DNA from: Cyanobium sp. FACHB-13342
GTDB lineage: Bacteria; Cyanobacteriota; Cyanobacteriia; PCC-6307; Cyanobiaceae
NCBI RefSeq assembly: GCF_014697415.1
Contig: NZ_JACJRT010000007.1
Coordinates: 1 to 64,000 of the forward strand
Direction: 5' to 3'
DNA: 64,000 nt
Below, piece by piece: positions 1,363-50,697 of the stretch; position 1 is the stretch's first letter, and each line of letters starts with the position of its first letter. Below the pieces are notes generated by a model. It was given only the letters and a program-made list of their open reading frames with translations. It did no database searches and had not been told where the DNA came from. The position numbers and the translations under genes were made by a program.

Positions 1363-2514
1363 GTGCAACCGTTGCGACGACGAGTTTGGTGGGTGGGCAC
1401 GGCCGTGGCATTGGCCGTTCTGGGCCTACAACCCAGCCTAGCCAACACCCCATCAAACCCGGCAGCCGCCAGTCGCAGCCGGGTCGTCTACGACAGCTAC
1501 ATCCTCGGCCCGGGCGACACCCTGCAGATCGAGCTGCTCGACATCCCCGAGCTCAGCGGCACGGTGTCGATCGGCCCCGACGGCACCCTCTATCTGCCCC
1601 GCCTGCGTGCTCTCTACGTGGAAGGGCTCACGGTGGAGGAGCTGCGCTACTTCCTCACCGAGCAGTTCAAGCGCTACGTGCGCCAGCCCGAGATCTACAT
1701 CCGCCCGGTGGGCTACCGCCCGATTCGCATCTACGTGGGCGGAGAGGTGAAGCGGCCGGGCTATTACACCCTGAGTGGCGTGCAAGCCACTACGGAAGAC
1801 CTCACAGATCCCAACACCACCCCTGAGGTGGCCAGCGGCTCGGCAGCCCTGGGACAGGGACTCACCACCCGCAAGAGCAGCAGCGCCGGCGGCAGCAGCT
1901 CCGCCACCCTGTTCCCCACCGTGTTCGACGCGATCCGCACCGCCCAAGGGATCACCCCCTACTCCAACCTGGCCGAGGTGCAAGTCACCCGGCGCCAGCC
2001 CGTGAGTGCCGGCGGCGGCAAGATCCGCACCCAGCTCAACTTCCTCACCTTGATCACCGAGGGGGATGAATCCCAGAACATCCGCCTCTTTGACGGCGAC
2101 GTGGTGAGCGTGGCCAAGAGCCCCGTGGTGCTGCGCGAGCAGGTGCTCAAAGCCGGGCAAACCAACCTCAGCCCCCAGTTCATCCAGGTGTACGTGAGTG
2201 GCCGGGTGAAGACCCCCGGCGGCGTCACCCTGCCCCAGGGCTCCGCCCTCAACCAGGCCCTCAACCTCGCCGGCGGTCCTTCCCTGCTGCGCGGCAAGGT
2301 GGAATTCATCCGCTTCACCCGCGAAGGCGAACTGGATCGCCGCCTGTTCACCTACAACCCCAACGCCGCTAGCGATTCGACGGCCAATCCCATCCTGATG
2401 GCCGGCGACATCATCCGCGTGCAGGATTCGGCCCTCTCCGCCAGCATCAGCGTGATGAACGAGCTCACCGGCCCCTTCGTGGGGGTGTACTCGGTGTACA
2501 GCCTGTTCCGCTGA
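1363..2514 (+). CDS. Outer-membrane polysaccharide export protein (Wza-like, SLBB)
   Basis: 383 residues. Residues 1-28 are a basic-hydrophobic signal peptide (MQPLRRRVWWVGTAVALAVL). A polysaccharide-export domain follows at about 45-115 (YILGPGDTLQIELLDIPELS, with GPDGTLYLPRL), then SLBB segments at about 120-255 (RIYVGGEVKRPGYYTL) and 265-360 (QVYVSGRVKTPGGVTLPQGS). The family forms the periplasmic and outer-membrane conduit for capsule or exopolysaccharide. GTG 1363 was chosen for the signal peptide; AGGA lies about 12 bases upstream. The insert at about 142-190 is long, Ser/Ala/Gly-rich and probably disordered. First gene of a tight operon; its TGA overlaps the next ATG by one base. Confidence 0.88.
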   Translation: MQPLRRRVWWVGTAVALAVLGLQPSLANTPSNPAAASRSRVVYDSYILGPGDTLQIELLDIPELSGTVSIGPDGTLYLPRLRALYVEGLTVEELRYFLTEQFKRYVRQPEIYIRPVGYRPIRIYVGGEVKRPGYYTLSGVQATTEDLTDPNTTPEVASGSAALGQGLTTRKSSSAGGSSSATLFPTVFDAIRTAQGITPYSNLAEVQVTRRQPVSAGGGKIRTQLNFLTLITEGDESQNIRLFDGDVVSVAKSPVVLREQVLKAGQTNLSPQFIQVYVSGRVKTPGGVTLPQGSALNQALNLAGGPSLLRGKVEFIRFTREGELDRRLFTYNPNAASDSTANPILMAGDIIRVQDSALSASISVMNELTGPFVGVYSVYSLFR

Positions 2515-4235
2515 TGAGCCCCTCCCTGCCCCAGGCTCAGCCCCACCCTGCGCCGGCCGACGACGAGATCGACCTTGGCCAGCTGGCTGCCTCCCTGCGC
2601 CGCCGCTGGCGCCTGATTGCCCAGGTGGCCGGCGGCACCCTGCTGCTCTCCGCCGCTGTCACCCTGCTGCAAAAGCCGGTGTGGGAAGGGGAGTTCCAGA
2701 TCGTGCTGGCCAGTAGCGAAGGCTCCGGCGGCAAGCTGGCCCAGCTCGCGGCCGCGAATCCCATGCTGGCCGGGCTGGCGGGCCTCGGCAGCAGCGGTGG
2801 CAAAGACAGCCTCGAAACCGAAGTGAAGGTGCTGGAGAGCCCTTCGGTACTCAAGCCGGTGTTCGACTTCGTCAAAACCAGCAAGCTGCGCGCCGGTGAA
2901 AACGTGGACCGCCTGCGCTATGCCGACTGGCTCAAGGACAACCTCGAGATCAAGCTGGAAAAGGGCACGTCCGTGCTCAACATCGCCTACCGCGACTCCG
3001 ACCAGGCCTTAATCCTGCCGGTGATTGAGCGCATCTCCAAGGCCTACCAGGACTACTCCGGCCGGGATCGCCGCCGCGACATTGCCAACGCGGTGACCTA
3101 CCTCCAAGGACGGATCACCGTTCTCGCCCCCAAGGCGGAGGCCTCCATGCGCCAGGCCCAAGCCTTCGCTCTGGCCAACGGACTGGGCCTTCAGGACGGC
3201 CTGCCCGCCGCCAGCGCTGAGATGGCCGGTGGCGGCGGCGGATCATCAGCAGGCACCGGTGGCTCCGTGGAGGCCAGTCGCATGGCCGCCCAGGCCCAGG
3301 TCATCGCCCTGCGCCAGCAACTCACCAACGCCAAAGCGGCCGGCAGCGCCGTGCTCTTCCAGGCTCCCCAGCTGGAGGCCAACAAGGAGCTCTACACGCG
3401 CTACCAGGATGTGGAGGCTGATCTGGCTGAAAAACGCAGCCGGCTCAAGGAGGGCGACCCCATCATCCGTGCCCTGCTGCGCGAACAGGCGGCCCTGGCC
3501 AGCACCTTGAATCGCGAAACGATTGCCCTGCTGCAAGGCCAGCTGGCCACCGCCGAGGCCCGCCTGCAATCCGCCTCCCGGCCCAAAGACGTGGTGCTGC
3601 AGCATCGCCAGCTGGTGCGCCAAGCCCTGCGCGAAGAGAAGACTCTCACTGAACTGGAAAACCAGCTGCAGTTGGCCTCCCTGGAGCAGGCCAAGCAAAC
3701 CGAACCCTGGGAGTTGATCTCCACCCCCACCCTGCTCGACAAGCCCGTGTCCCCCAGCAAGGGCCGCAACCTGGGCTTGGGGCTCCTGGCCGGCCTGGTG
3801 CTCGGCTCCGGCGCGGCCCTGGTGGCCGAGCGCCGCAGCGGCCGGGTGTTCGCCACCGACGAGCTCCAGGCCGCCCTGCCCGGCCCCCTGCTGGCCCGCC
3901 TCGATCCCGCCGCGCCCGAAGGCTGGGCCCCCACCCTGGCCCTGCTGGCCTCGGGCCCCCTGGCCGGGGCGTCCAGCGTGGCCCTGATCCCAGCGGCCGG
4001 CCCAGGCGAGCCGGAGCTGGCCGAGGCCCTGCAGCGGGCCCTCCAGCAGCGCACCCCCGGCGCCCAGGTGCTCGGCACCAGCGATCTGGTGGCCGCCGGC
4101 GCCTGCCAGGCCCAGCTGCTGGTGGCCCGTCCAGGCGTCATCACCCGCCCCCAGCTCGACGCCCTGCGCCAGCAGCTCCAGCTCCAGGGCAAACCCGCCC
4201 TGGGTTGGCTGCTGCTCCAGAGCCCGGATGCCTAG
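2514..4235 (+). CDS. Polysaccharide co-polymerase (Wzz/Wzc-like) with degenerate kinase domain
   Basis: 573 residues. A membrane helix at about 30-53 (WRLIAQVAGGTLLLSAAVTL) begins a Wzz domain, a long coiled-coil periplasmic arm spans about 190-390, a proline motif DKPVSPSKG precedes the second helix near 418-437 (LGLGLLAGLVLGSGAALV). Wzc-type proteins control chain length and end in a cytoplasmic tyrosine kinase. Here the corresponding stretch, about 440-573, has the fold-like alternation but no P-loop: where a GxGKS/T motif belongs it reads SVALIPAAGPGEPELAEAL. No Walker B aspartates or Tyr cluster are visible. It is coupled to the exporter gene by a one-base overlap and overlaps the next gene by eight bases. 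Confidence 0.85.
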   Translation: MSPSLPQAQPHPAPADDEIDLGQLAASLRRRWRLIAQVAGGTLLLSAAVTLLQKPVWEGEFQIVLASSEGSGGKLAQLAAANPMLAGLAGLGSSGGKDSLETEVKVLESPSVLKPVFDFVKTSKLRAGENVDRLRYADWLKDNLEIKLEKGTSVLNIAYRDSDQALILPVIERISKAYQDYSGRDRRRDIANAVTYLQGRITVLAPKAEASMRQAQAFALANGLGLQDGLPAASAEMAGGGGGSSAGTGGSVEASRMAAQAQVIALRQQLTNAKAAGSAVLFQAPQLEANKELYTRYQDVEADLAEKRSRLKEGDPIIRALLREQAALASTLNRETIALLQGQLATAEARLQSASRPKDVVLQHRQLVRQALREEKTLTELENQLQLASLEQAKQTEPWELISTPTLLDKPVSPSKGRNLGLGLLAGLVLGSGAALVAERRSGRVFATDELQAALPGPLLARLDPAAPEGWAPTLALLASGPLAGASSVALIPAAGPGEPELAEALQRALQQRTPGAQVLGTSDLVAAGACQAQLLVARPGVITRPQLDALRQQLQLQGKPALGWLLLQSPDA

Positions 4236-6189
4236 GCCTCGGGCCCAGCTGCTGCCCCTCGCCGCGGCCCTGCTCAGCCTGGGTTCCAGCGGCCTGGCGC
4301 AGCCCGGCTGGGCCCAGCCCCAATGGCAGCCCCTCGCCCCCTCAGGCGCCGGATCTGGGGTGCCTGCCAGCCCCACCGGCTGGAGCCCCGTGCCACCGGC
4401 CACCGATCCGGCCCTGCCCGGTGCCAGCTGGCAGCCCGTGCCCCCCGGCGACCCCGGCAGCAGCACTCCTCCCCAATGGGCTCCGGTGCCCGCCGGTGAT
4501 CCTTCGCTGGCGCCGCCGGCCGAGGCCAGCTCCGCTCCAGGCTCCGGAGCGAGCCCCCCCACCAGCGCTGCCGAGGCCGAGGCCGTGTTGGCCGGCCTGC
4601 TGCCCAGCCGGGCCGACTACCTGCCCCTGCTGCGCCTGGGCCCCCTACCCACCGCCTGGCTGCTGGATGAAAGCCTGGCCCAGCTCAGCTTCCAGCAGGT
4701 GAGCCCCGGCGATGGCGGTGAGGCCGGCGGCAGCGGCAACCAGAACTATGGCTTCCGCGCCGATGTGGGCCTCTCCAGGGCGCTGCTGGTGTCGCTCACC
4801 TACACCTACGCCGACGACCCCCTGTTTGCGCCCATCCCCAGCCGGCCCAGCCAGCCCGCCAACTACTGGAATGCGGCCGGTGCCAGCCTGCGCGGCCGCC
4901 TCGCCGGAGGCCCCAACTGGCAGCTCGCCGCCGAAGGAGCCCTCGAGCTCTTCACCGTGGGCAGCGGCTGCGGCGGCACCGTGAGCTGCGACGGGCCCGG
5001 CACCCCCAACATCTTCAACGACTCCGGCCAGCTGGTGTTCACCCGCAACTGGGTGGGGGCCCTCTCGCTGCCCCTCACCTGGCAGGCCAGCCGCCAGCTG
5101 CAGCTCTCGCTGGTGCCAGCGGTGAGCTTCTTGCCCGACTTCCAGGGCGCCGACCAGGGCGGCGCTGGGGAGTTCTACGGCACCACCATCAGCCTGGGCC
5201 TGGGGGCCAGCTACCGGCTCGGCAACCAGGTGCAGCTGTTCGGCTCGGCGTTGCTGCCCTTCGGGCCCGGCACCAATGCCTTTGATGGCGATCTGGTGTA
5301 CTCCCGCGTGCCGATCCTCACCGCCGGCGCCAACATCGCGGTGAACCCCCGCATCGGCCTGGAAGCCAGCATCACCAACGGCTTTGGCCTCAGCCCGGCC
5401 ACCGCCATCCTGGCCCTGCCCAGCGCGCCCACCGAGCCCATGCTCAATGGGCGCTTCACCTGGAATCCCGGTGCCATGGATTCCCCCAGCCCCCGCTACA
5501 GCCGCCGCCAGGCCTCCCTGGCCCTCGGGGGCCTCAGCGTCAACACCGCCCTCACCCCCGCCGACGGCACCACCCAGCTCTGGCTCAATGGCGACAGCCG
5601 CGGCAACCTCTTCGGCGGCGCCGGCTACTCGGTGTCCAACGACTTCCAATTCCAGCTGGCGGCCGGTGTGTTCAACGGCATCGAGCCCCGCAACGACTTC
5701 GTGAACACCTACGCCGGCGATGGCGGCCCCAACCTGCGCTTCGGCGGCAAGGCGATGGTGTTCCGCCCCAGCAAAAGCCTGCCCCTCTGGGCCGCTGGCC
5801 GCATCTCCGTGGGCCGCAACGAAGACGCCAGCAGCAAGCAGGGCTACCTCTTCTTCGAAACCATCAACACCTGGGAGGCCAGCCCCACCCTGGCCTTCAA
5901 CCTCAACCCCAAACTGGCCTGGAGCGGATCCGGCACCAGTTGGGGCGTGGGCCTGGGGGCCAACCTGCAGCTGGGGCCCAGCTTTCAGCTGATCCCGGAA
6001 GTGAATCTGGTGGCCACCGATCTGGGCGGCACCAATGGCTCCAACGGCAGCCTGGCCCTGCGCTGGCTCGCCTCCCGCAGCACCACCGTGGACGTCTATG
6101 TGTCCAATGCGGCCGGCCTCTACGACCTCGGCCAGCTGCTCGGCAACGACCAGGTGCGTGTGGGTGCCCGGCTCGGCTTCAGCTTCTGA
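4228..6189 (+). CDS. Predicted outer-membrane beta-barrel protein of the export operon
   Basis: 653 residues, not matched to a named family. Residues 1-28 form a signal peptide (LLPLAAALLSLGSSGLAQPG). Residues about 31-95 are a proline-rich linker with four tryptophan-proline repeats (WQPLAPSG, WSPVPPAT, WQPVPPGD, WAPVPAGD). From about 150 to the end the sequence alternates polar and hydrophobic residues with many Gly, Asn and aromatic positions, such as LSLVPAVSFLPDFQ, RIGLEASITNGFGLSP and QVRVGARLGFSF. The terminal Phe is the classic outer-membrane barrel signature. Overlap with the co-polymerase gene suggests a role in polysaccharide secretion (inference). Confidence 0.7.
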   Translation: MPRPRAQLLPLAAALLSLGSSGLAQPGWAQPQWQPLAPSGAGSGVPASPTGWSPVPPATDPALPGASWQPVPPGDPGSSTPPQWAPVPAGDPSLAPPAEASSAPGSGASPPTSAAEAEAVLAGLLPSRADYLPLLRLGPLPTAWLLDESLAQLSFQQVSPGDGGEAGGSGNQNYGFRADVGLSRALLVSLTYTYADDPLFAPIPSRPSQPANYWNAAGASLRGRLAGGPNWQLAAEGALELFTVGSGCGGTVSCDGPGTPNIFNDSGQLVFTRNWVGALSLPLTWQASRQLQLSLVPAVSFLPDFQGADQGGAGEFYGTTISLGLGASYRLGNQVQLFGSALLPFGPGTNAFDGDLVYSRVPILTAGANIAVNPRIGLEASITNGFGLSPATAILALPSAPTEPMLNGRFTWNPGAMDSPSPRYSRRQASLALGGLSVNTALTPADGTTQLWLNGDSRGNLFGGAGYSVSNDFQFQLAAGVFNGIEPRNDFVNTYAGDGGPNLRFGGKAMVFRPSKSLPLWAAGRISVGRNEDASSKQGYLFFETINTWEASPTLAFNLNPKLAWSGSGTSWGVGLGANLQLGPSFQLIPEVNLVATDLGGTNGSNGSLALRWLASRSTTVDVYVSNAAGLYDLGQLLGNDQVRVGARLGFSF

Positions 6190-6278
6190 GCCGCCCCGCG
6201 CCTCACAAAGCCCCCGCCGCCCCCTGACAAACGCCCGGGCGGCAGGCAGGATCGAAGCAGACCCGCCAGCCGGCCTCG

Positions 6279-6731
6279 ATGACCCCCGCCCCCGACCAAC
6301 CGGCATCCAGCGCCCAAGGCGCCGGCGCCAATGGAGCAGCTCTGGCCTGGGTGCCCTGGCTGCAGGCGGGCGTCACCGCCATGCTCGTGGTGCTGTTTGT
6401 GGTGATCGTGGGCAAAACCCGCCAGCAGAACGCCACCATCCGCCAGCTGCAGGAGCGGGTGCAGGGCCTGGAGAACAGCCGCGCCCTCGACCGCACCACC
6501 GGCCTGGAGGAGCAGCTGCGCACCACCGTGGAACGGCTGCAGGCCGTGGAGCGCAACAGCGCCCGCATCCAGGCCCTCAGCGGCGAAAACGCCAACCTGC
6601 GCCTGGAGCTGCGCCGGCAGCAGGCCACCCGCGACGCCGGCGTTGACACCCTGCCGCCCCTGCCCAAGCTCGATGAGCCCCTGGCGCCGCCTCCCCAGCC
6701 ATCGCCCAAGCCTCCTGCCGCCGCCAACTGA
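6279..6731 (+). CDS. Membrane-anchored coiled-coil protein, unknown function
   Basis: 150 residues. One transmembrane helix at about 24-45 (WVPWLQAGVTAMLVVLFVVI) is followed by a heptad-rich coiled coil at about 48-118 (QNATIRQLQERVQGLENS, LEEQLRTTVERLQAVERN) and a proline-rich tail (PPQPSPKPPAAAN). No enzyme motif is visible. It begins 89 bases after the barrel gene in the same direction, so it is probably the last gene of the export operon. It ends six bases before the convergent regulator gene. A structural or scaffold role across the periplasm is possible but not shown. Confidence 0.6.
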   Translation: MTPAPDQPASSAQGAGANGAALAWVPWLQAGVTAMLVVLFVVIVGKTRQQNATIRQLQERVQGLENSRALDRTTGLEEQLRTTVERLQAVERNSARIQALSGENANLRLELRRQQATRDAGVDTLPPLPKLDEPLAPPPQPSPKPPAAAN

Positions 6732-37602: not shown

Positions 37603-37762
37603 CGCCATCCTGGGCGGCCTGCCTGGCCACCCAGGCCTCATGGGGCAGGGGCTCGGTGCCGTATTCCCAGTCGTCGTAGTCGGGGTCGTTGCGGATTTTC
37701 TGATGCAGCTCCTTCTGGACCTCAAAGTCGTGGGGGTGGGACTCGGGCTGGGGGGCCGTCAT
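37571..37762 (-). CDS. Small acidic hypothetical protein
   Basis: Sixty-three residues: HPHDFEVQKELHQKIRNDPD then YDDWEYGTEPLPHEAWVARQ and a proline-rich end. Soluble and acidic, not recognised. ATG 37762 overlaps the P450 stop (ATGA), making it the last gene of a coupled three-gene unit; an ATG at 37786 would add eight residues. It could be a P450 accessory protein, but nothing in the sequence shows a redox centre. The gene end overlaps the MFS gene. Confidence 0.6.
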   Translation of the reverse strand: MTAPQPESHPHDFEVQKELHQKIRNDPDYDDWEYGTEPLPHEAWVARQAAQDGATPPEPPASA

Positions 37763-39255
37763 GGCTGGACCGGGTTTTGTTGCCATTCTGGGGCATCCAC
37801 GCGGGGGGCTTCCGGCGCCAACTCCGAGCGGAGAGAGCGGCGCACCAACCGCACCCGGATGCCGTTGCGGGAGCGCAGGGTGAGTCGCGCCACCAGCTCC
37901 GGTTCGTGCTCCGGATCCGGCAACACCTCAAAGCGACGCACCAGCTCGGCCAGCACCAGCAGCGCCTCCTGCTGGGCAAAAGCCGCCCCCGGGCATTTGC
38001 GTGGCCCCAGCCCATAGGGCAGGAAGGCGTCGCGAGCCCAGCGGCGATCGTCAGGGCTGTTGGCTTCGCCAGGCGTGTCCGTCAAGAAGCGCTCGGGCCG
38101 GAACGCATTGGGTTCACTCCAGTGCTGGTCATGGCGCTGAATCACCCAGGGCGAGAGGGTCACCAAGGCCCGCATCGGGCAGCGGCTGCCCGCCAGCTCC
38201 GTGTCGACCTGGGACTCCCGAATGAAGAAGCTCACCGGCGGATAGAGCCGCAGCGTCTCGTTGAACACGGCGGCGCCGTAACTGAGCTGGCGCAGATCCT
38301 CGAAGCCCAGGGGCCGATCCGGCGCGCCGGCCCGGGAGCCCAGCACCTGCAGCACCTCAGCGCGCAGGCGCTGTTGCACCTCCGGAAACCGGCCCAGCAG
38401 ATACACCGCCATGCCGAGGGCACTGGCGGAGGTCTCATGGCCCGCCAGAAACAGAAAGCACACCTGATCCACCAGCCCGTCACGGCTGAAGCCCTCCCCC
38501 GTGTCGGGGTCGCGGGCGGCGATCAAAGCATCCAGCAGATCGGTGGGAGAGGGGGTGTCGTTGGGAGTGGCGTTCTGGCCGGCGGGGGCAGTGAGGCGCC
38601 TGTCGATCGCGGCGGCGATCCAGGCGCGGATCGGCGTGGCATGGGTGGCCAGATACGCCTGCAGGCGCTGTCGCGGCAGCCGCAGGAAGCGCAGCATCAG
38701 GGCCCGACCCGCCCGCTTCTGATAGCGGGCAAAGGCCGCGAAGATCGCCTCAGCCTCCTCACCCTCCAACGGCCGCGACAGGATCGTGCGCACGATCACA
38801 TCGGCCGTCACCAAGGTCATCTCGGCGTCGGCGTCGATGGGGCCTTCATCCACCTGGGCCTCCAGCCGGACCAGGCTGGCCGCCACGGCCCCCTCCATCT
38901 GGGGGTACACCCGCTGCAGCTGGGCCACCTGGAAGGCCTGATCCACCAGGCGCCGCTGCTGGGCCCACTCCGCGCCATTCACCGAGAAGATTGCCCGGCC
39001 GATCAGCGGCTCCAGGATCCAGAGGGTGTAGGGGTGCTTGGGAAAATCCTCCACCGCGCTCACCATCACCTGGCGCACCGCCGTGGGCTCATTCACCAGC
39101 AGCAGGTTGAGGCCCATGAACCGCAGGGCCCCCACCGGGATGCGGAAATCCCATTCATTCAGCAGGCCAAACCAGGAATACAGACCCCGGCGAATGCGGC
39201 GCAGAAAATTGGGGGTGTAGGGCTCCGGATGGGGATAGATCGGTTCATCACTCAT
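37759..39255 (-). CDS. Cytochrome P450
   Basis: 498 residues. Oxygen-activating I helix FLFLAGHETSASALGMAVYL near residue 272, K-helix ExxR in FNETLRLYPP near 333, PERF in NAFRPERFL, and the heme loop FLPYGLGPRKCPGAAFAQQE with ligand Cys421. All catalytic features are intact. No membrane anchor, so a soluble bacterial-type enzyme needing ferredoxin. Its ATG overlaps the upstream hydrolase stop by four bases. Closeness to the polyketide synthase operon suggests a tailoring hydroxylase, but fatty acids or carotenoids are possible substrates. Confidence 0.95.
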   Translation of the reverse strand: MSDEPIYPHPEPYTPNFLRRIRRGLYSWFGLLNEWDFRIPVGALRFMGLNLLLVNEPTAVRQVMVSAVEDFPKHPYTLWILEPLIGRAIFSVNGAEWAQQRRLVDQAFQVAQLQRVYPQMEGAVAASLVRLEAQVDEGPIDADAEMTLVTADVIVRTILSRPLEGEEAEAIFAAFARYQKRAGRALMLRFLRLPRQRLQAYLATHATPIRAWIAAAIDRRLTAPAGQNATPNDTPSPTDLLDALIAARDPDTGEGFSRDGLVDQVCFLFLAGHETSASALGMAVYLLGRFPEVQQRLRAEVLQVLGSRAGAPDRPLGFEDLRQLSYGAAVFNETLRLYPPVSFFIRESQVDTELAGSRCPMRALVTLSPWVIQRHDQHWSEPNAFRPERFLTDTPGEANSPDDRRWARDAFLPYGLGPRKCPGAAFAQQEALLVLAELVRRFEVLPDPEHEPELVARLTLRSRNGIRVRLVRRSLRSELAPEAPRVDAPEWQQNPVQP

Positions 39256-40376
39256 GGCGCCAGCAAAGCCTCGATTAGGTCGAAACCACCGCTGCGCGCC
39301 GGATCGGCGGTGCGCAGGTATTCGAAATGCAGATCAAATTGGTGGCTGAGCAAGGCCCCCAAGCTGGTGAGCCCCTGGCGCTGGGCCAGGGGCATCAGTT
39401 GCAGCTCCGGGTAGGCCCCGGCGCCAGCGCGGGGCACGCCGCAGCTTTGGTACGGGTCCACCGCCGCGAAGCAGAGGTAGTCGTCGCGGGAGGTGATGTC
39501 CCGCCAGGGCAGGCGCGGCTCCTGGGCCAGCAGGGCCAGATCGGCATGGAAGGCCTGGGCCTTGCCATGCACCGCCAGGTTGGCCAGGTTCTGACCCAGG
39601 CTGAGCAGCTGCAGCCGCCCCGACAACGTCTGGTCGGCGCCCTGGCGGCGCAGCGCCGCGGCCAGCATCGCCATCACAAAGGAGCCGCTGCTGTGGCCCA
39701 TCAGCCACACCTGGCCCGCCGGATCGGCCGCCTCCAGCTCCAGGATCCGCGCCGCCAACTCCGCCACCCGTTGGCGCAGATCGCCGTCGCGGGCCTGGCC
39801 CAGCCGATGGGTGAAACGAATCGAGCGGAACAGCCACACCACGCCGAGGGCCTCCGCCAAGCGCCAGGCCTGCCAACCGCCGAGACCCACCAAAGCCAGC
39901 TGCAGGATCCACACCAGCGGGTCAGGCACCGCCAACAGGCCGCCCAGCAGCCCTAGCCCAGCGCAGAGCAAGGCCAGCAGCAGCAACGCCGTGCCGACGT
40001 ACAGCGTGGGATACAGCCCACAGAGCGCCACCCGGGGAGACCAGCGCCGCATGGTGCGATAACCACCTCCAAACAGGTACCAGGCGTAGATCCCAACCCC
40101 GTCGCGGAGCAGCACCAGCGGATTCCTCGGCCAGTGGGCCCGCGCGATGTCATCCCAATGGAGAAAACAGAAGTCGAGATCAGCGCCCCCCAGCTCACGC
40201 ACCTGCCAGCGGCTGATCAGTCGATCCACCTGCTGGCCGCGGCGATGGCTCACCTGCAGCCTGCGGCCACTGCGCCGCTTCAGCTGCCGCACCTGCTCGG
40301 CGAAGAGGCGGTAATAAAAACTGGCCCCGCGGGGATCGAAGCCGCTGAGGAAGTACACCCGCCGTCGCGGGCACAT
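39252..40376 (-). CDS. Membrane-inserted alpha/beta hydrolase-like protein
   Basis: 374 residues. Starts RRRVYFLSGFDPRGASFYYR, a strand-turn like the oxyanion region of hydrolases. Two membrane helices at about 112-160 (LYVGTALLLLALLCAGLGLL and VWILQLALVGLGGWQAWRLA) interrupt the fold before the nucleophile elbow VWLMGHSSGSFVMAMLAAAL (Ser near 229). The C-terminus has conserved-looking HFEYLRTADPARSGGF. Function unknown. ATG 40376. It is the first gene of the unit with P450 and is divergent from the SRPBCC gene, only 33 bases away. Confidence 0.65.
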   Translation of the reverse strand: MCPRRRVYFLSGFDPRGASFYYRLFAEQVRQLKRRSGRRLQVSHRRGQQVDRLISRWQVRELGGADLDFCFLHWDDIARAHWPRNPLVLLRDGVGIYAWYLFGGGYRTMRRWSPRVALCGLYPTLYVGTALLLLALLCAGLGLLGGLLAVPDPLVWILQLALVGLGGWQAWRLAEALGVVWLFRSIRFTHRLGQARDGDLRQRVAELAARILELEAADPAGQVWLMGHSSGSFVMAMLAAALRRQGADQTLSGRLQLLSLGQNLANLAVHGKAQAFHADLALLAQEPRLPWRDITSRDDYLCFAAVDPYQSCGVPRAGAGAYPELQLMPLAQRQGLTSLGALLSHQFDLHFEYLRTADPARSGGFDLIEALLAP

Positions 40377-40409
40377 CTGGTCAACAATGGCCGTATCGCC
40401 TGGAACGCC

Positions 40410-40970
40410 GTGGTCGCGACCCGCCTGCTGCAACGACGCAGTCTCCCGATCACGGTTGGCTTCCTGGCAACCCTACAGGCGTTGCCCTTGCTGGCCGCCA
40501 GCCCCGCTTCCCGGGTGACCCTCTCCGGTCAACAGGGCCAGTACACCGCCTCGGTCATGGTGCCGGTTTCAGCCCCCAAGGCCTGGGCCGTGCTCACCAA
40601 CTACGAATCCATGGCCGGCGTGATGCCCGACATCCAACAGGCCAGGGTGGTGAGCCGCAGCGGCCGCAACCTCGAACTGGCCCAGACCTACAAAGCCCCC
40701 TACACCTTTGGCCTGAGCATCAAGGCGCGCCTGCAGGTGCAGGAAACGCCCCCCAGCAAAATGAGCTATGCCCTGATCAGTGGCGACCGCATCAAGCAGC
40801 TCCAGGGCAGCTGGACGATCACCCCGGTGAAGGGCGGTGTGCTGGTGAAGCACCAGATCCAGGTGGTGCCCCAGATCCCCGGCTTCCTGCTGGGCACGTA
40901 TTACAACCTCACCGAAACCAACCTGCGCCAATCGATGCAAATCCTGGCCCAGCAGATGGTCAAGGGCTGA
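40410..40970 (+). CDS. SRPBCC-fold (START-like) exported protein
   Basis: 186 residues from GTG 40410. Signal peptide LPITVGFLATLQALPLLAAS, then a cyclase/dehydrase-type SRPBCC domain: SVMVPVSAPKAWAVLTNYES, MAGVMPDIQQARVVSRSGRN, GSWTITPVKGGVLVKHQIQV and a final helix NLRQSMQILAQQMVKG. The fold binds hydrophobic ligands such as lipids, polyketides or carotenoids. It is placed beside the polyketide synthase operon, converging on the glycosyltransferase gene with an eleven-base overlap. A lipid-binding role in the periplasm is an inference. Confidence 0.75.
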   Translation: MVATRLLQRRSLPITVGFLATLQALPLLAASPASRVTLSGQQGQYTASVMVPVSAPKAWAVLTNYESMAGVMPDIQQARVVSRSGRNLELAQTYKAPYTFGLSIKARLQVQETPPSKMSYALISGDRIKQLQGSWTITPVKGGVLVKHQIQVVPQIPGFLLGTYYNLTETNLRQSMQILAQQMVKG

Positions 40971-42204
40971 GCGGCCGCACGCCGCGGCCCTCCACCCGAT
41001 AGTGCACCCCGCGCCACTCCACCCGCCGGGCCAGGGCCGCCCGCAGGGTGGCCAGGCCATAGACCCATTGGGCCAGGGGCAGCCAACGCAGCAGCCGCCT
41101 GGCCTCGGCCAGCCCCGGCCGGGGTAAGCCCTCTGCCAGGGGCCTCAGGGCCCGGGAGGCCACCGCCTCGATCAGCACCAGCAGGGCCACGCAGCCCAGT
41201 TCGTAAGCCAACGTCGCCGCCAACAGCACCCCAGCGGCGGCCAGCTGGCCCTGCAGCAGGGCCGCCAGCAGGGCCGCCAGCGCAACCAACAGCAGCAGCC
41301 AGGTGCCCAGCCCATGCAGGGCCACCAGGGGCCAGGCCGGATGGTGGAGCCGCGCGGTGAGCAGCTGACGGCTGATCCAACGGCGCAGCGGCCGCAGGGC
41401 GATGCCATCCTCCCGGTCGAGGGCAATCAACTCTGGCCGGAATTCGTAGCGCCAGCCGCTGCGGGCCAGGGGGGCCGGCAGGGCCGTGTCTTCGCACAGG
41501 CTGGTGGAGAGCACATCGCGCCAGCCCGTGGGCTCGATCAACTGGCGCCGCACCGCCAGGGAGCCCCCCCAGGGAATCCCCAGCAGGGTCATCAGCACCA
41601 GGGCGCCGCCGTTCCAGATGGCGCGCACCATCCCGGCCGGGCTGCCCTGGGCGGGGGCATACCAACGGTTGCCGGACACGGCCCCTACGCCAGCCTGGGC
41701 GCAACCCGCCGCCAGGGCCTCGAGCCAACCGGGAGCCACCACCGCATCGGCATCCACCAACGCCACCAGCTCCGTGGCCCCGTGCAGCGCGCCGAAGGCC
41801 TGACGCAGCGACGCACTTTTGAGCGATCCCGCCTCCGGCATGCCAGCCAGGGGGATCAACCGGGCGCCCTGCCAGCGGGCCAGCCCCCCCTTCTCCAACC
41901 GGGCAATCTGCTGTTCCGCCAGGGGCCAGGCCGGATCCTGCCGGGAATCCACCACGACCAGCAACCGCCAGGGGCCCGGATAGGTCTGGGCGGCCAGGGC
42001 CGCCAGGGCCTCAGCCAGGCTTGGATCGGCGCCCCGCAGGCACAGCACCACCTCCGCCGGCGGTGCCGGCAGGGCCAGCTGGGGACGGCGGGCCAGGCGA
42101 CGGCACACCACCAGGGCAAACGCCAAGGTGAGCAACAGTTGCAAGCCCAGGGTGGCCAGCAGGGCAGCAGCCAGCCCCAAGGAGGCAGCGGTGAAGCCGC
42201 TCAA
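40960..42204 (-). CDS. Membrane glycosyltransferase, family 2
   Basis: 414 residues from TTG 42204, which overlaps the polyketide synthase stop (TTGA). N-terminal helix LGLAAALLATLGLQLLLTLA, then a GT-A domain: EVVLCLRGADPSLAEALAAL, LVALVDADAVVAPGWLEALA (DxD-type metal site), GGSLAVRRQLIEPTGW and CEDTALPAPLARSGW (the catalytic ED). Two or three C-terminal helices at about 295-355 ([20 protein letters not shown]). The domain order resembles HpnB/ceramide-glucosyltransferase-like GT2 enzymes that act on lipid acceptors. Coupling suggests that the synthase product is the acceptor (inference). Confidence 0.85.
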   Translation of the reverse strand: MSGFTAASLGLAAALLATLGLQLLLTLAFALVVCRRLARRPQLALPAPPAEVVLCLRGADPSLAEALAALAAQTYPGPWRLLVVVDSRQDPAWPLAEQQIARLEKGGLARWQGARLIPLAGMPEAGSLKSASLRQAFGALHGATELVALVDADAVVAPGWLEALAAGCAQAGVGAVSGNRWYAPAQGSPAGMVRAIWNGGALVLMTLLGIPWGGSLAVRRQLIEPTGWRDVLSTSLCEDTALPAPLARSGWRYEFRPELIALDREDGIALRPLRRWISRQLLTARLHHPAWPLVALHGLGTWLLLLVALAALLAALLQGQLAAAGVLLAATLAYELGCVALLVLIEAVASRALRPLAEGLPRPGLAEARRLLRWLPLAQWVYGLATLRAALARRVEWRGVHYRVEGRGVRPLSP

Positions 42205-45200
42205 AGCGAGGTCACACCGGTGATCAGGCTGCGGGCATAGGGGCCAATCAGGGCCTCGAAGCCCGGGCAGCGCACGCCCCGGGCCGCCAGGAGCTCTACC
42301 GTGGCTCGGCAGCTCGGTCGCGCCCGCACCCCGGCCTGGTTGAGCTCGGGGTAGGTGAGCTGTTCGTCGCCCCAACGCCGCACGAAGAAGGTGCGGATGC
42401 CGTAGAGGGGATTGGCGGGATCGCCGGCGATCGCCTCCAGCCACCGCTCCATCGACACCAGCTCCAGCGGCGCCCCGCGCTCGATCAGGTTGCCGAGCAG
42501 ATCGGCCAGCAGCATCGGTTCGGGATGTTGCAGGTGAACGTTGCGTCCCACCGCCTCCGGCATCCAGGCCAGGGCCGTGACCGCATCGGCCACGTAATCC
42601 ACCGGCACCAGATCGAGCTCCCAGGGCAGATCCGGAGCCATGCCCAGGGCCAGGCAGCCCCGCAGCAGCCGGTGCAGCAGGTCGTCCTGGTGCCAGGCAC
42701 CGGTTTGGGAGTGACCGCCGATCAGGGGCGGGCGGTACACCGTCACCGGCAGGCCGGCGGCGGCGGCGGCCAGCACCCGCCGCTCACTCACCCATTTGGT
42801 TTGGGAGTAGCCCACATGGATGCCGCGCCACTCGGCCACGTCGTCGCTCTCGAGCACCTCCCGGTTGCGGTAGGCCGCGGCCTCGAAGGCCGCCACGCTG
42901 GAGATCAGCTGCACGGGCACCGGGCCACCGGCGGCGGGGTGGACCGCCAGGTCAAGCATGGTCTGGGTGCCGCCCACGTTGGCGGCCTCCAGCTGGCTGT
43001 AGGGGGCCATCTGGCTGAGTTGGGCCCCGTTGTGCAGGATCCCGCCCAGGCCCTGGGCCAATCCGGCCAAGGCCGACTCCGAGAGGCCGAAGCGGGGCTG
43101 GGCCAGGTCCCCGGGCACCGCCACCAATCGGTTGCTCCAGCTGTCCTGCCAGAGGCCGTAGTGGTCGAGGTTGGCCTGGATCCGGGCCACACCCTGGGCG
43201 GGGTCGCTGGCCCGCACCAGGCAGCGCACCTGCAGCCGCTCCCAGCGCTGCAACTGGCCGGCCAGCAGGTAGGCCCCCAGGAAGCCGGAGGCACCGGTGA
43301 GCAGAATCGCCGCCCCAGGGGGGGATTCTGCAGAAGGAGCTGCGTCCGGCAGGCTCCAGTGGGGCGCCAACTGCGCTTCCCGGCCCAGGTCCAGCACCCG
43401 CTCCGCCCCAGCCTTGGGATCCACCAGGGCCTCCAGCAACACGGCGGCCAGGGCTTCGATCGTGGGATCACCGGCCAGGGATTCCAGCTCCAGCTTCACC
43501 CCCAGGTCGCGCTGGATGCCGGCCGCCAGCTCCACCGCCATCAGCGAATCCAGGCCGATGTGGAAGAGGGAGTCGCCGGGATCCAGGCTGCGGGCATCCT
43601 CCAGGCCCATCACGGTGGCCAGGCGTTGCTGCAGCAGCTCCACCACCAGGGCCAGGCGCTGGTCGTCGTCGACCTGGGCGAGCTGCTGGCGCAGGGCCTC
43701 CCCCTCGGCCCCCTCGTCGGCGGTGGCGGCCGCCTTGAGCAAGGGCTGCAGCACGGCCGACTGGCGGCTGCCGAGCTGGGCCGCCAGCTTGGGCCAGTCG
43801 TTATGCAGCACGGCCACGCATCCCGGTCGCCCCCGCTCCAGCAGCAGGGCCAGGGCCTCCAAAGCCTGGGCGGGAGGCAGCAAGCCCACCCCCAAAGCCG
43901 CGAATCGGCGCTCCAGACCCTCCGCCATCCCGGCACCGCCCCAGGGACCCCACTGCAGCGAGAGCAGCGGCCAGGCCGAGTGGGTGGTGGATGCGGCCAA
44001 GCCATCGAGGGCCCCATTGGCCATGGCGTAGCTGGTCTGCCCCGGCGAGCCGAGCAGAGCGGCCATCGAAGAGAAGGCCACCCCAAACTCCGGCCGGCAG
44101 TCAGCCAGGCGGCAGGCCTGCTCCAACCGCTGCCAGCCGCCCCATTTGGGGGCGATCACCGCGGCCTGCCGGGCCGGAGTCTGCCCCTCCAACAGGCCGT
44201 CATCCAGCAGGCCCCCCCCATGGAACACCCCCACCAGGGGCTTGCCCCGCAGGGCCGCAGCCAGCTGCTCCGGCGGATCGGCCGCCAGATCGAAAGCCAG
44301 GGACTCACAGTCGACGCCCTGGCTCTGGAGCTGCTGAACGAGCTGGGGATCGGGCCGCCGGCCCAGCAGCACCAACGAGCGGGCCCCCTGAGTTGCCAAC
44401 CAGAGACTCAGCTGCTGACCGATGCCGCCAAAGGCACCGGTCACCAGATAGGTGGCCTCTGGGCGGATCGTCCAGGCTGCCGGCCGCTCCGGCTGGGTGA
44501 TCACCACCTTGCCCACATGCCGGGCCTGGGCCATCAGCCGGAAGGCCTCCACGCTGCGCTCGATCGGAAACGCCTGCAACGGGATCGGCGCGTAGTGACC
44601 GGCCTCGAGGTCGGTCAGCAGCTCCACCAGCAGGCCCCGCACCAGGGAGGGGTCAGCCGCGGCCACCTCCAGCAGGTCGAAGGGCAGGTAGGCGGCATCG
44701 GGCCGACGCTGGGCCGCCTCCTCCCGACTCCAGATCTCGATCTTGCCCAGCTCCACAAAGCGGCCGCCGTCGGCCAGGGCGGCAAAACTTGCCTCCACCC
44801 AGTCGCCCTTGAGGCTGTTGAGCACCACATCCACGCCGCGGCCGCCGGTGGCGGCCCGCACCTGCTCACTGAAGGCGAGGCTGCGGGAGTCGAACACCGC
44901 TTCCACCCCCTGCTCCAGCAGGGCCGCCTGTTTGGCCGCACTGGCCGTGGCGAGCACCCGAGCGCCGCAGCGGCGAGCCACCTGCAGGGCGGCCTGGCCG
45001 ACCCCACCGGCGGCCGCATGGATCAGCACGGTCTCGCCCGGGCGCAACTGGGCGAGGGTCTGGAGGCCGTAGATCGCTGTGAGGAAGGCCGTGCTGACGC
45101 TGGCCCCCAGGGCCGGATCGAGGGCCGCGGGCAGGGGGACGCACAGGGCGGCACGGCACACCACGTGGCTGGCCAGGCTGCCCACCGCCAGGGCCGCCAG

Positions 45201-48200
45201 CAGCCGCTGGCCCACCAGGGCTGGATCCACTCCGGGGCCGACCGCCACCACCCGGCCCACGCATTCGCCGCCGTAGGGCAGGCGGGCCTCGGCGTCCATG
45301 CCGAGCTCCCGGCTGTAGCCCGCCAGCAGCCCCAGGGCATTCAAGACATCGCGGAAATTGAGGCCCGTGGCCTCCACCGCCAGTTCCAACTCGCCAGGCC
45401 CCGGAGAGCGTCGCTGCAGGGGAAGGGCCCGCAGGGTTTCCAGGCTGCCGAGGGCACCGCTCTCCAGGCGGAAGGGGGCGTCGGCCAGGGGCTGGAGGCG
45501 CTGCACCCAGGCCCGACCATCCCGCCAGGCCAGCAAGGGCTCCCGCTCCCCGAGGGCGAGCAGGCCCGGCCAGTCCGCCGCGGCCGGAGGGGTGCCATCG
45601 GCCAGGTGCAACACGGTCCAGCCCAGGGCGGGCTGCTCCAGGGCGGCCGAGCGGGCAAAGGCCGCCATGCCAGCCGCCAGGGGGCCACCCCCCTGCAGCA
45701 CCAGCCACACTGGTCGGGCCGGTGCCCCGGCCAGCTGCTGGGCCCAACCGAGCAGCTCCGCCGCCAGATCCTCCAGGGCCAGGGCAGGCCCAGTGAGATC
45801 GGGCCAGAGCAGCAGGGGCTCCGGCCCCGGGGGGATAGGCGCGCCGCCCGTGAAACAGAGCGGTTCCCCGCCGGACTGGGGCAGGGGCTCGAGCGCCGGA
45901 GCCTCTTGCCAGTCGGTTTCCAGCAGCCAGTCCTGGGGGCCAGGGTCGGGCTCCGCCTCCGGCAGGGGGAAGAGCCAGTCGAGGGCCTGGCGCGGCAGAC
46001 GCCGCAGCCGGAATCCCCGGATCCAGCCCAAGGGGGTGGTGCCGTCGTGGAGCACCAGGTTGGCCAGGACAAAGGCCGGCTCCTGGCTGGGCTGGAGCTG
46101 CACCTGGCAGTGCAGACGATCGGGCAGGGGCAAGGCCTTCAGCCACAGCTCCTCCAGTCCCACCGGCAGCAGAAGCTGCCCCTCCCGCGCCGCGGGATCC
46201 AACAACACGGCCACGGCCTGAAAACAGCTGTCCAGCAGGCCCCGGTCCTGGCCCCCCTCCGGACGCTCCAGCTCCGCCCAGGCTTGGCCATCGGCCAGCT
46301 GCAGCTGCCGCAGGCCCCGGTAGGTGGGGCCATAATTCAGACCAACTTGTGCCAGGGCCCCATAGAACCCTGCCAGTTGCACCGACGTCGACGACGCCGG
46401 GGGCTGGGTCAGGGGGAAGGGCGGCTCTGCCGATGGGGCCCCCTCCAGGGCCACCTCCCCATGACGCTGCCAAGGGGAGGTCTCCGGCCCATCCGGGCGG
46501 CTGTGGAAGGTGAGGCCATCGGCCCGCCGGTGACACTGCAGCCGCACGGTGGTGCCGTCGCCGGCCAGCTTCAGCGGTTGATCGAGGCGCATCGACCCCA
46601 GCCGCAGAGGCTGCCCGGCCTGCTCCAGCAACGCCAGCGCCGCCGTGAGGAAGCCCGCAGCGGGGAACACCACTTGGCCGCGAATGCGGTGATCGCCCAG
46701 ATCCGTGCCTTGCTGGCCCAACAGGGCCTGATACACCTCCACATCCCCAGGAAGATCCAGCCGGCTGAAGGAGCCGGCGGCGGCGGACAGGCCACGGGAG
46801 GGCGCCGCCGCAACCGGCCGCAGGGCCGCACTGGCCGGGCCGGTGAGACCGAGATGGTGGAGCCAGGAGCTGGCCGGAGCCGAGGCTTCGCCCTCCCGGT
46901 TCCACCAATAACGCTGCCGTTCAAAGGGGTAGCCGGGCAAGCTGACTCGCCGGAAGGGGTAGGGGCGGTGGAACCCCGCCCAGTCAACGGCGAAGCCACT
47001 GCGCCAGAGGCCGCCGAGGCTGGCGTAGATCACCTCCCAATCGGACTGCCCAGGCACCAGGGAAGGCCAGTAACTGAAGGCGGGCTCCTGGACGCACTGA
47101 CGGGCCATGCCGATCAGGGTGGGGCGGGCCCCAATCTCCAAAAACACCTGGGCCCCCTGGGACACGAGGGTGGCCACCCCCTCCGCAAAGCGCACCGGGC
47201 TGAGCACCTGATCGCACCAGTAGTCGGGCTGGGCCACCTCGGCCCCAGCCAGCAAACCGGTGAGGTTGCTCACCAGCGGCTTGCTGGGCGGCGCAAAGGC
47301 CAGCTGCCGTAATTCGCGCTCGAAGGCTTCCAACATCGGAGCCATCGCCTCGGTGTGAAAGGCATGGGACACCGCCAGCTGGCGGGCGTGGAGTCCGGCC
47401 GCTTCCGCCTCAGCCAGCAGTTGCCGCAGGGCGGCGCTCGGGCCAGCCACCACGGTGTTGGCAGGGCCGTTGTACGCCGCCACACGCATCGCGGGATGGC
47501 GAGCCATCAGCGCTTGCACCCGCTCCAAGGGAGCCAGCAGCGCCACCATGCCGCCCGAGGGCGGTAAGGCCTGCATCAAACGCCCACGGGCCGCCACCAG
47601 GCGACAGGCGTCTTCCAAGGAGAACACCCCGGCCAAGTGGGCAGCCAGCACCTCCCCAATGCTGTGGCCCATCAACAGATCGGGGCGCACACCCCAGCTC
47701 TGCCAGAGCTGGCTGAGGGCGTAGCCCACCGCAAACAGAGCCGGCTGGGCAGCCCCTGTCTGATTCAAGAGGGCTGCGGCCTGGGCCTCATGGCCCGCCT
47801 GGGGCACCACCAGGTCGCGCAGCGGCGTCTCCAGCTGGGGATCGAGCAGGACGGCCACCCGCTCAAAAGCATCCCGGAACGTGGGGTGCTCCAGCAGCTC
47901 CCGCCCCATGCCGAGGGCCTGGGACCCCTGGCCGGTGAAGAGCCAGGCCAGCTTGCCGGGCCGCCGCGATGCGGTGGCGCGCGTCACACCATCGGGGAGG
48001 GGACTCCGCCCACTGGCCAGGGCCTGAAGCTGGCTCAGCAACTGGGCGTGGTCGTGGGCCAGGCACACCGAGCGGTGCCGGAAGCCGGTGCGACCCAGGT
48101 TGGCGGAGGCGGCCAGATCGGCGAGCTTGAGGGAGGGTTTGGCCTGCAACTGCCTGGCCAGATCCCGCGCCATGCAGGCCAGGGCCTCGGGTGTGCGGGC

Positions 48201-49562: not shown

Positions 49563-49591
49563 CGGGGCGTTCAGACCAGTCCCATCCTCTC

Positions 49592-50692
49592 CTAAGGGCT
49601 CAAGCGGGAGAGAATCCCAGTGGGGTTCGCCGACAGACGATGCTGCTGATACCGCTGGCGTAAGGCGCAATAGCCCTCAGGGTCAGCCAGCCATTGGCGC
49701 ACCAGTGCTGCCAGCTCCTCCGGCCGTCGGATCGAGGACTCCAATCCCCGGGCGCGGAAATAACGCGGTGCCAACAATTCCTGGGGCATGGTGGTGCCGT
49801 AGTGGTTGAACACCAGGGGGCAGGCCATAAACAGAGCCTCGGTGGCGGTGCGCGCTCCCGGACGACTCACCAGGGCCCAGGCCCGCTGATAGAGAGCAGC
49901 CATCGCCGCCGGATCCTGGTAGCCCAACGCCTGCACCGCCAGCTCCGGGTGCCGCCCGGCCCACGCCTGCAGCTGCTCCCGCACCGCAGGGCGACGACCA
50001 CACAAGGCCACCACCGCCACCTGACCGGCAAAGGGCAACAACTGCTCCAGCAGCGGGATGTGGTTGTTGGCCCCGTTGGAGCCCGTCCCAAGCACGAGAA
50101 GGGGTAGGCCCGCCACGGCCTCCGGAGCGGGGCCGGCGTCGTGATACGCCGGGTAGAGAAGGGGGCCCAGGCCCTCCACCGGCACGCCCGGCCGGCGCTG
50201 CCGCACCTCCCGCACCACCTCCTCGGTGAGGGCCCAGAACAGATCGGTGCGGCGACTGAGCCAGTTGCGGCTGAAGCCGAAGCCACCGTCGAGTTCGGTG
50301 CAGCAGGTGATGCAGCGCAGCTGGGGACCCAACACCCGCTTGGCCAGATCGAAATGGCCCCGGTTGGTGTGGGGATGGGTGGAGATCAGCACGTCCGGCC
50401 GGAAGTTCTGGAGTTCCCGGATCAGGTAGCGGCGCCCAAAGAGCACGGTGCCAGGCTTGATCAGATCTTCCAGTTCCATGGCACGCCAGTAGAGCTGGTG
50501 CAGCCAGGGCCGGCGACGCTGGATCCAGTTGTAGAGCTCCACTCCGCCGCGGTAGGTGCTGCTCGAGTGCTCGAGCACCTGATCCACCCGCACCTCCGCA
50601 TCCGGGCGCACCCGGGCTAACCACTGCTGGATCGCTTCGGCTGCCGCGTCGTGGGCCGTGCCGCCGCTGGAGGTGTAAATCAGAACGCGCAT
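49592..50692 (-). CDS. MGDG-synthase/UgtP-like glycosyltransferase (GT28)
   Basis: 366 residues. MGDG-synthase-type N-domain: RVLIYTSSGGTAHDAAAEAI, YRGGVELYNWIQRRRPWLHQ, PDVLISTHPHTNRGHFDLA. GT28 C-domain with sugar-nucleotide-binding PLLVLGTGSNGANNHIPLLE, ALGYQDPAAMAALYQRAWAL and VSRPGARTATEALFMACPLV. Relatives add galactose or glucose to lipids. It lies between the MFS carrier and the polyketide synthase and is cotranscribed with them, so a role on the synthase product or a membrane glycolipid is likely; galactolipid synthesis is the alternative. ATG 50692. Confidence 0.85.
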   Translation of the reverse strand: MRVLIYTSSGGTAHDAAAEAIQQWLARVRPDAEVRVDQVLEHSSSTYRGGVELYNWIQRRRPWLHQLYWRAMELEDLIKPGTVLFGRRYLIRELQNFRPDVLISTHPHTNRGHFDLAKRVLGPQLRCITCCTELDGGFGFSRNWLSRRTDLFWALTEEVVREVRQRRPGVPVEGLGPLLYPAYHDAGPAPEAVAGLPLLVLGTGSNGANNHIPLLEQLLPFAGQVAVVALCGRRPAVREQLQAWAGRHPELAVQALGYQDPAAMAALYQRAWALVSRPGARTATEALFMACPLVFNHYGTTMPQELLAPRYFRARGLESSIRRPEELAALVRQWLADPEGYCALRQRYQQHRLSANPTGILSRLSP

Positions 50693-50697
50693 CGGGA

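Follow-up and report, generated by a model that had tools for sequence, protein, structure and literature searches.

Few studies have dealt with the passage of polysaccharides across the outer membrane of cyanobacteria, and most exopolysaccharide genes are described as lost from marine picocyanobacteria (PMC4594306). The closest described systems are of two kinds. In composite translocons such as EpsX/EpsY and Wzp, the gene for an outer-membrane polysaccharide export (OPX) protein, short and helix-less, is coupled to the gene for a single 18-strand outer-membrane barrel, with a polysaccharide co-polymerase (PCP) gene nearby (PMC9601211, PMC9603273). The survey that describes them sets the limit for a short OPX protein at 280 residues, finds 93% of coupled barrels with short OPX proteins and 7% with longer ones, and draws the dichotomy between a barrel without a helix and a helix without a barrel within the short OPX proteins (PMC9601211). 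The second kind is GfcD, a double barrel encoded beside the OPX protein GfcE (PMC9603273) in the Escherichia coli group 4 capsule operon gfcABCDE-etp-etk, for which a role in the export of (lipid-anchored) polysaccharide with lateral release has been proposed (PMC11494523). The string 'cyanobacter' occurs 0 times in the main texts of PMC9601211 and PMC9603273. Here we describe a locus in the first 64,000 nucleotides (hereafter the window) of contig NZ_JACJRT010000007.1 of Cyanobium sp. FACHB-13342, our contig C16 of a genome of 2.37 Mb in 18 contigs. It encodes an OPX protein, a PCP protein and a conserved candidate outer-membrane component with the unusual architecture of two duplicated barrels. 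We think the chances evenly balanced that this duplicated two-barrel protein works with the adjacent OPX/PCP pair to carry or place a surface glycan, which in part of the family would be lipid-linked.

The OPX gene, for a Wza-like polysaccharide export protein of 383 residues, lies at 1363..2514 on the + strand (PF02563, E-value 4.4e-17, plus SLBB matches), and is followed on the same strand by the gene for a 573-residue PCP protein with a Wzz domain (2514..4235; PF02706, E-value 2.9e-13) and by the gene for the 653-residue outer-membrane protein (4228..6189), a probable tandem double beta-barrel on the basis of its duplication and a structure model. An earlier note on this DNA had placed four open reading frames here and described the first three as coupled by overlap. 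All four were found exactly where it had put them, and the three export genes do run head to tail, with 1 base shared between OPX and PCP and 8 bases between PCP and barrel. The same OPX-PCP-barrel order is seen again in relatives, so that the arrangement is not due to chance and the operon is real. The nearest named relative in one contig scan is Cyanobium sp. T1B-Tous, whose barrel is 94% identical to that of the window. Divergence within the operon is mosaic: compared with locus L040 the barrel is 94% identical and the OPX protein 86%, but the PCP protein only 63%, and the window PCP is nearer to those of L037 and L038 (66-67%), though their barrels are only 63-64% identical to that of the window. 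We read this pattern as replacement or fast divergence of the PCP gene inside the operon.

For the 653-residue protein, neither Pfam nor NCBIfam gives a match at E-values up to 1. The earlier note had seen in it one large outer-membrane barrel, of which the outer-membrane features persist, namely a signal-like hydrophobic N-terminus, a C-terminal Phe and a weak model of barrel-like appearance, while the single barrel was rejected as improbable on an internal duplication together with a 12+12 strand pattern, the latter from that weak model. When profiles of the two halves were built from 68 relatives and compared with hhalign, they aligned as a tandem duplication (98.6%, E-value 7e-16, 220 columns); the reversed C-half gave 2.5% and 20 column-shuffled controls at most 1.2%. 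The AlphaFold model, made from 12 sequences (pLDDT 43, pTM 0.34), looks like one or more beta-barrels. It predicts 12 strands in the N-half (residues 151-412; 4678..5463, + strand), not counting a strand of 4 residues at 283-286, and the same number in the C-half, which ends in the C-terminal Phe (residues 449-653; 5572..6186, + strand). The C-half of the model superposes on the closed 12-strand porin KdgM (4pr7) with a Z-score of 19.5 and a root-mean-square deviation (rmsd) of 1.9 over 168/171 residues, and it also matches two further barrels of that closed type, FapF (Z-score 18.7) and NanC (Z-score 18.4). Matches that span the N-half are CymA, OmpG and PgaA (Z-scores 12-13); CymA and OmpG have 14 strands each, which makes the strand number of the N-half less sure. 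The duplication in the sequence and the predicted strands together indicate that the protein probably consists of two barrels in tandem, with about 12 strands apiece.

Ahead of the barrels lies a low-complexity segment with four W-x-P-(L/V) repeats (residues 33-87; 4324..4488, + strand), predicted as low-confidence coil (pLDDT <30), and W-containing repeats are likewise present in the distant relatives L104, L108, L115 and L117. The segment is possibly a periplasmic docking segment. Searches for relatives of the barrel by sequence in the PDB returned none that was credible, the best being immunoglobulin chains at E-values of 0.06 and above. TonB-dependent receptors, listed first by Foldseek, were treated as meaningless (TM-score ~0.2, rmsd ~20). 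Wzi, GfcD and EpsX are not among the 50 structural matches listed, which excludes nothing. The uncharacterised barrel domain DUF5777 (PF19089) is matched by 11/53 family members at E-values up to 0.01, in the N-half of L112 and the C-half of L125 as judged by position; the window protein has no such match, and one of ten relatives scanned (L112) is above the Pfam cut-off.

As in GfcD/YjbH, then, two barrels are predicted in one chain, and the gene lies beside that of an OPX protein; GfcE is classed as helix-bearing, and in the window the adjacency is observed while the helix is a low-confidence prediction. The differences are substantial. GfcD has 12 + 13 strands and a periplasmic middle domain (residues 279-423), where the window protein has a short linker, and the two barrels of GfcD/YjbH are mutually dissimilar (0.2% by hhalign), whereas those of the window protein are clear duplicates. 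Homology between the two proteins was not found, with hhalign scores of 0.9% for the whole and 4.1, 0.2, 0.1 and 0.6% for the halves, though with two sequences on the GfcD/YjbH side a remote relationship may have been missed. Neither a YjbH model nor any capsule-assembly family occurs among the Pfam matches of 53 barrel relatives.

The partner proteins can be compared with E. coli Wza and Wzc. The OPX protein, which is the only PF02563 match in the genome, has the PES domain (PF02563) and two SLBB domains of Wza, and the PCP protein has the Wzz domain of Wzc. Here, however, the OPX protein is without a lipobox, since its signal segment holds no Cys, the PCP protein is without kinase motifs, and the twin barrel is additional. 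The OPX protein aligns with Wza by hhalign (99.1%) as far as Wza residue 366 of 379, which enters D4. The alignment of OPX proteins from relatives (A2) also takes in one dissimilar member, that of L033 (38% identity). Foldseek ranks Wza first for the OPX model with an E-value of 1e-17, yet the TM-score is 0.3 and the rmsd 20-27, so that the domain arrangement is not confirmed in spite of the strong E-value. A 26-residue C-terminal helix is predicted at the position of Wza D4 (residues 357-382; 2431..2508, + strand) in a block of pLDDT 38-56, and Pfam Wza_C is absent among the OPX matches at E-values up to 1. We consider it probable, at low confidence, that this OPX protein keeps a C-terminal helix, unlike that of the published short-OPX translocons. 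A 383-residue OPX protein with a probable helix and a barrel falls in the minority case of the survey cited above, and its nearest precedent is GfcE/GfcD.

These features bear on the suggestion of the earlier note that the barrel may provide a variant exit route. The linkage of the barrel to OPX and PCP genes is borne out in Cyanobiaceae, but a barrel beside an OPX protein is already published and so is not new in itself. The locus might simply be a composite translocon as published, with the barrel alone forming the pore and the OPX protein remaining periplasmic as in EpsX/EpsY and Wzp. The coupling of the OPX and barrel genes, the missing Wza_C match with a C-terminal helix of low confidence, and the 7% of surveyed coupled barrels paired with an OPX protein of >280 residues (PMC9601211) would all fit. 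The length of 383 residues, the predicted helix and the alignment that enters Wza D4 would not, nor would a barrel that resembles a 12+12 duplication (in a low-confidence model) in place of a single 18-strand barrel, and we consider this explanation unlikely.

In an alignment with E. coli Wzc and with relatives that carry the kinase, the window PCP protein is missing the Walker A and Walker B motifs and the Tyr-rich tail. A full BY-kinase region, with Walker A and B as in Wzc, is present in the PCP proteins of L033, L083, L090 and L039, and the barrel is thus found after both kinase-less and full BY-kinase PCPs. In L033, L083 and L090 the OPX gene is divergent from the PCP gene, and the barrel follows the PCP gene in both arrangements.

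The linkage of barrel and exporter was followed through 300 Cyanobiaceae genomes, with match limits of E-value up to 0.001 for the barrel and up to 1e-5 for OPX, and through a phylum sample of 292 genomes. In the family the barrel was found in 66/300 genomes and OPX in 182/300. The co-occurrence check that the earlier note had proposed gave OPX in 61/66 barrel-positive against 121/234 barrel-negative genomes (Fisher p 2e-10); the five barrel genomes without OPX comprise four that are 57-85% complete and one (G282) with a barrel fragment. Counts tallied by hand gave 39/40 against 102/157 for high-quality genomes, and 21/21 against 12/38 by genus. The phylum sample had the barrel in 27/292 genomes, one of these matches (G136) being weak and partial, and OPX in 27/27 against 145/265. 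Gene neighbourhoods were compared at 43 Cyanobiaceae loci, which represent 41 of the 66 genomes with the barrel (two loci each in G137 and G247), and 32/43 of these loci have an OPX gene no more than 3 kb from the barrel. Within Cyanobiaceae the barrel is therefore genetically tied to OPX/PCP, by both the loci and the genomes.

The Cyanobiaceae loci that lack a nearby OPX gene include those of the small-genome genera g18, g11 and g4. At L107 and L108 (genus g18, genomes of 1.7 Mb) there is no OPX gene within a 17-kb stretch, and the neighbours are what we take to be psbD, psbC, maf and cobQ; at L106, L109 and L111 the barrel neighbours are presumably sugar genes.

A second set of linked genes, overlooked by the earlier note, is a block of lipid type around a polyketide synthase (PKS), which in the window occupies 37759-51984 (~37.8-52.0 kb), 31 kb from the barrel. 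In many relatives its genes for a P450, a membrane lipase-like protein that we call GenY, a START protein, a GT2 glycosyltransferase and the reducing PKS stand directly 3' of the barrel and convergent with it. The P450 gene is present at 22/43 Cyanobiaceae barrel loci (at 17 of which no more than 100 bases separate it from the barrel), GenY at 21/43 and any block gene at 28/43, counting L091/L100 and the PKS-only loci L076, L080, L081 and L086, where it is possibly another PKS. These counts are a lower bound, because the stretches of L073 and L093 end within 200 bases, and that of L091 ~700 bases, past the 3' end of the barrel. Across the family, GenY was found in 38/300 genomes and is concentrated in those with the barrel, which accompanies it in 33/38, whereas among the genomes without GenY the barrel is in 33/262 (p 2e-20).

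The block begins on the - strand with a cytochrome P450 (37759..39255; PF00067, E-value 5.6e-65), which shares 90% identity with the one adjoining the 3' end of the barrel gene in L036, and GenY (39252..40433, - strand), which carries an invariant GHSSG motif (alignment A5); the window copy of GenY has no family match, and relatives match Lipase_3 weakly, below cut-off. A START/Polyketide_cyc lipid-binding protein follows on the + strand (40134..40970; PF03364, E-value 2.2e-10; true start probably internal), and the remaining genes return to the - strand. They are a GT2/GT21 glycosyltransferase (40960..42444; PF13506, 41.7 bits, above cut-off), whose nearest NCBIfam model is HpnI (TIGR03472, 58 bits, below the cut-off of 310); a type I PKS of 2489 residues with the domains KS-AT-DH-ER-KR-ACP-thioester reductase by Pfam (42201..49670); a glycosyltransferase resembling monogalactosyldiacylglycerol (MGDG) synthase (49592..51061; PF06925, 29.1 bits, cut-off 25; true start probably internal), which scores 57 bits against a cut-off of 500 for the diglucosyl diacylglycerol synthase PRK13609; and, at the block end, an MFS transporter (50698..51984; PF07690, E-value 1.6e-12), which adjoins the block in L168, L169 and L172 too. 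The pair of lipid-type glycosyltransferase and MFS transporter (49592-51984) recalls the glycolipid synthase and flippase YpfP/LtaA of lipoteichoic acid anchors; an LtaA model is absent among the matches for the pair. The thioester reductase of the PKS is above cut-off in NCBIfam (TIGR01746 Thioester-redct, 267.8 bits, cut-off 213) and suggests release of the product as an aldehyde or alcohol. That a reducing PKS of this size with a thioester reductase is carried in a picocyanobacterial genome of 2.4 Mb is an observation in its own right, as is its resemblance in NCBIfam to the mycobacterial sulfolipid synthase Pks2, which at 903 of 2400 bits is far below cut-off.

In domain content, on which alone they were compared, the block resembles Pks2 and the heterocyst glycolipid clusters (PMC11804610), which share PKS domains, a thioester reductase and glycosyltransferases. 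It differs from both in its single reducing module, in its P450 and lipase-like partners, and in its position beside OPX/PCP in relatives. A 2014 survey describes CF-20, an uncharacterised PKS family of unknown product, as occurring widely among picocyanobacteria and as conserved in gene order (PMC4247773); the block resembles CF-20 in this description, and the two are possibly the same. Among the literature matches listed, by their titles and the starts of their abstracts, the combination of twin barrel, OPX/PCP and PKS block is undescribed, the subscription literature lying largely outside that search.

The position of the block appears to have changed. Separate stretches pieced together for G158 and for G126 give the order ABC permease - coiled-coil - MFS - MGDG-like glycosyltransferase - PKS - GT2 - START - GenY - P450 - barrel - PCP - OPX, preceded by what we take to be leuA (the names leuA, ABC permease, YchF and AcrA are all our own assumption). 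The barrel of the window and that of G214 adjoin the coiled-coil gene, and the block stands elsewhere between common neighbours, presumably an AcrA-like gene and YchF on one side and another MFS gene on the other. On these presumed gene names, the block probably once stood between barrel and coiled-coil gene and was relocated in the lineage of the window.

We suggest the following course for the export of the glycan. A lipid carrier would bear the polymer during its synthesis, and the PCP protein would take part in its extension in the periplasm. The polymer would then pass the OPX ring and leave by way of the twin barrel or alongside it. Near OPX in relatives there are a PF02397 sugar transferase and a gene of the epimerase family (Pfam), and the single PF02397 match of the window genome lies on another contig. 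Together with genes near the barrel loci of relatives that we take to be Gmd/Fcl-like and UDP-sugar dehydrogenase (UGD)-like, they suggest a polymer of the Wzx/Wzy type. In genomes that have the block, the linkage would be explained most simply by a glycolipid derived from the PKS, which serves as an anchor or is itself the cargo. The PKS with its reductive release would give a long-chain aldehyde or alcohol, the P450 would hydroxylate it, the glycosyltransferases would add sugar, and, in line with the proposal made for GfcD, the twin barrels may help to insert the glycolipid into the outer leaflet. In lineages with the block the probable cargo is thus a glycolipid, or else a glycan borne by a PKS-derived lipid, the lipid step being the least certain. 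By analogy, our working model is a GfcD-type lateral release of a lipid-anchored glycan by a protein without detectable relation to GfcD. The operon structure, the duplication, the conserved Cyanobiaceae linkage to OPX/PCP and the near-obligate co-occurrence with OPX are observed, and it is from such sequence comparison that a function of the twin barrel in export is inferred.

Several results weigh against this proposal. The p-values above are too small, because related genomes are not independent, which the genus-level test corrects only in part. The barrel model is weak, with its pLDDT of 43 from 12 sequences. At the 17 loci from other families, the stretches, which mostly cover 6-8 kb on each side and are short on one side in some (L122, L128), contain neither OPX nor PCP nor block genes, so that export need not be the sole role of the barrel; the earlier note had held that a barrel mostly away from export genes would speak against its idea, and this is what is found at these loci, in contrast to the Cyanobiaceae. 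Their neighbours, at seven loci presumably housekeeping genes, were set aside as a guide to barrel function, with 0/17 stretches holding OPX, PCP or block genes. One genome outside the family (G475) has OPX 7.6 kb from the barrel, just beyond the stretch examined, and OPX was found in all 18 genomes tested of the distant double-barrel relatives in other cyanobacterial families (L112-L128). OPX without the barrel is common (121/234), so OPX export does not depend on this barrel. As for the block, it is separated from the barrel by 31 kb in the window, 5/38 GenY genomes are without the barrel (G032, G068, G108, G109 and G153, with partial GenY in G108 and G109), and 33/66 barrel genomes have no GenY match, so that a lipid cargo cannot be general.

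Three other explanations draw on the same results. The twin barrel may act after export as a Wzi-like surface-attachment or lectin-like protein or as a modification scaffold. A helix-bearing OPX protein could export alone, many genomes have OPX but no barrel, and Wzi barrels are found close to OPX genes whatever their class (PMC9603273, Table 1). The window protein has no Pfam match, however, its 53 relatives match no capsule-assembly family, and the tight OPX/PCP linkage favours neither this reading nor export, which leaves a Wzi-like role quite improbable in our view. Less probable still is a reading in which a polysaccharide island carries the barrel as a passenger and the protein serves as a channel of general use, for small sugars or other solutes. 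The likeness of the C-half to the oligosaccharide porins KdgM and NanC, the weak DUF5777 matches in 11/53 family members and the 17 outside loci without export genes would be in keeping with it, but it would account poorly for the near-obligate co-occurrence with OPX, the barrel in 33/38 GenY genomes and its recurrent placement between OPX/PCP and PKS blocks. The idea that the barrel serves a PKS-derived glycolipid only, with OPX/PCP as mere neighbours, draws on the 17/43 loci with the P450 within 100 bases and on L098 and L103, which keep the block and have no OPX within the stretch. Half of the barrel genomes show no GenY, though, and both the window and G214 have the barrel with OPX/PCP and the block elsewhere; we hold this to be the least probable of the explanations.

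Returning to a twin barrel that works with OPX/PCP, a bolder version would have it arise independently of GfcD and couple the OPX/PCP exporter to a PKS glycolipid pathway, with the glycan on a PKS-made lipid anchor. As part of the same joint reading, the orphan PKS, possibly CF-20, would be a maker of envelope lipid and not of a secondary metabolite. We regard this version as doubtful. The linkage to an uncharacterised PKS block allows a guess at the PKS product, namely an envelope glycolipid or anchor. If this were true, the surface chemistry of some picocyanobacteria would depend on an undescribed pathway, with a plausible bearing on grazers, phages and sinking, and the double-barrel solution would have arisen at least twice.

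The fourth gene of the earlier note, for a small transmembrane/coiled-coil protein of 150 residues (6279..6731, + strand), begins 89 bases past the barrel gene and by its distribution is a neighbour outside the export unit. It had been taken for an export partner and is better seen as a bystander. Matches to it occur in 16/16 genomes of the genus, 5/16 of them with in-frame stops, which makes the protein part of the genus background, and 9 of these 16 genomes have no barrel match. In the barrel-positive G158 and G126 the gene lies past the PKS block from the barrel, and at its place in G045 and G183, two genomes without a barrel match, it adjoins what we take to be the same leuA and permease genes. 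On its genus-wide distribution and its position in G158/G126 it was rejected as a fourth component. Beyond it, a LysR-like regulator (6738-7667), with domains below the Pfam cut-offs, is convergent with the coiled-coil gene in both the window and L040.

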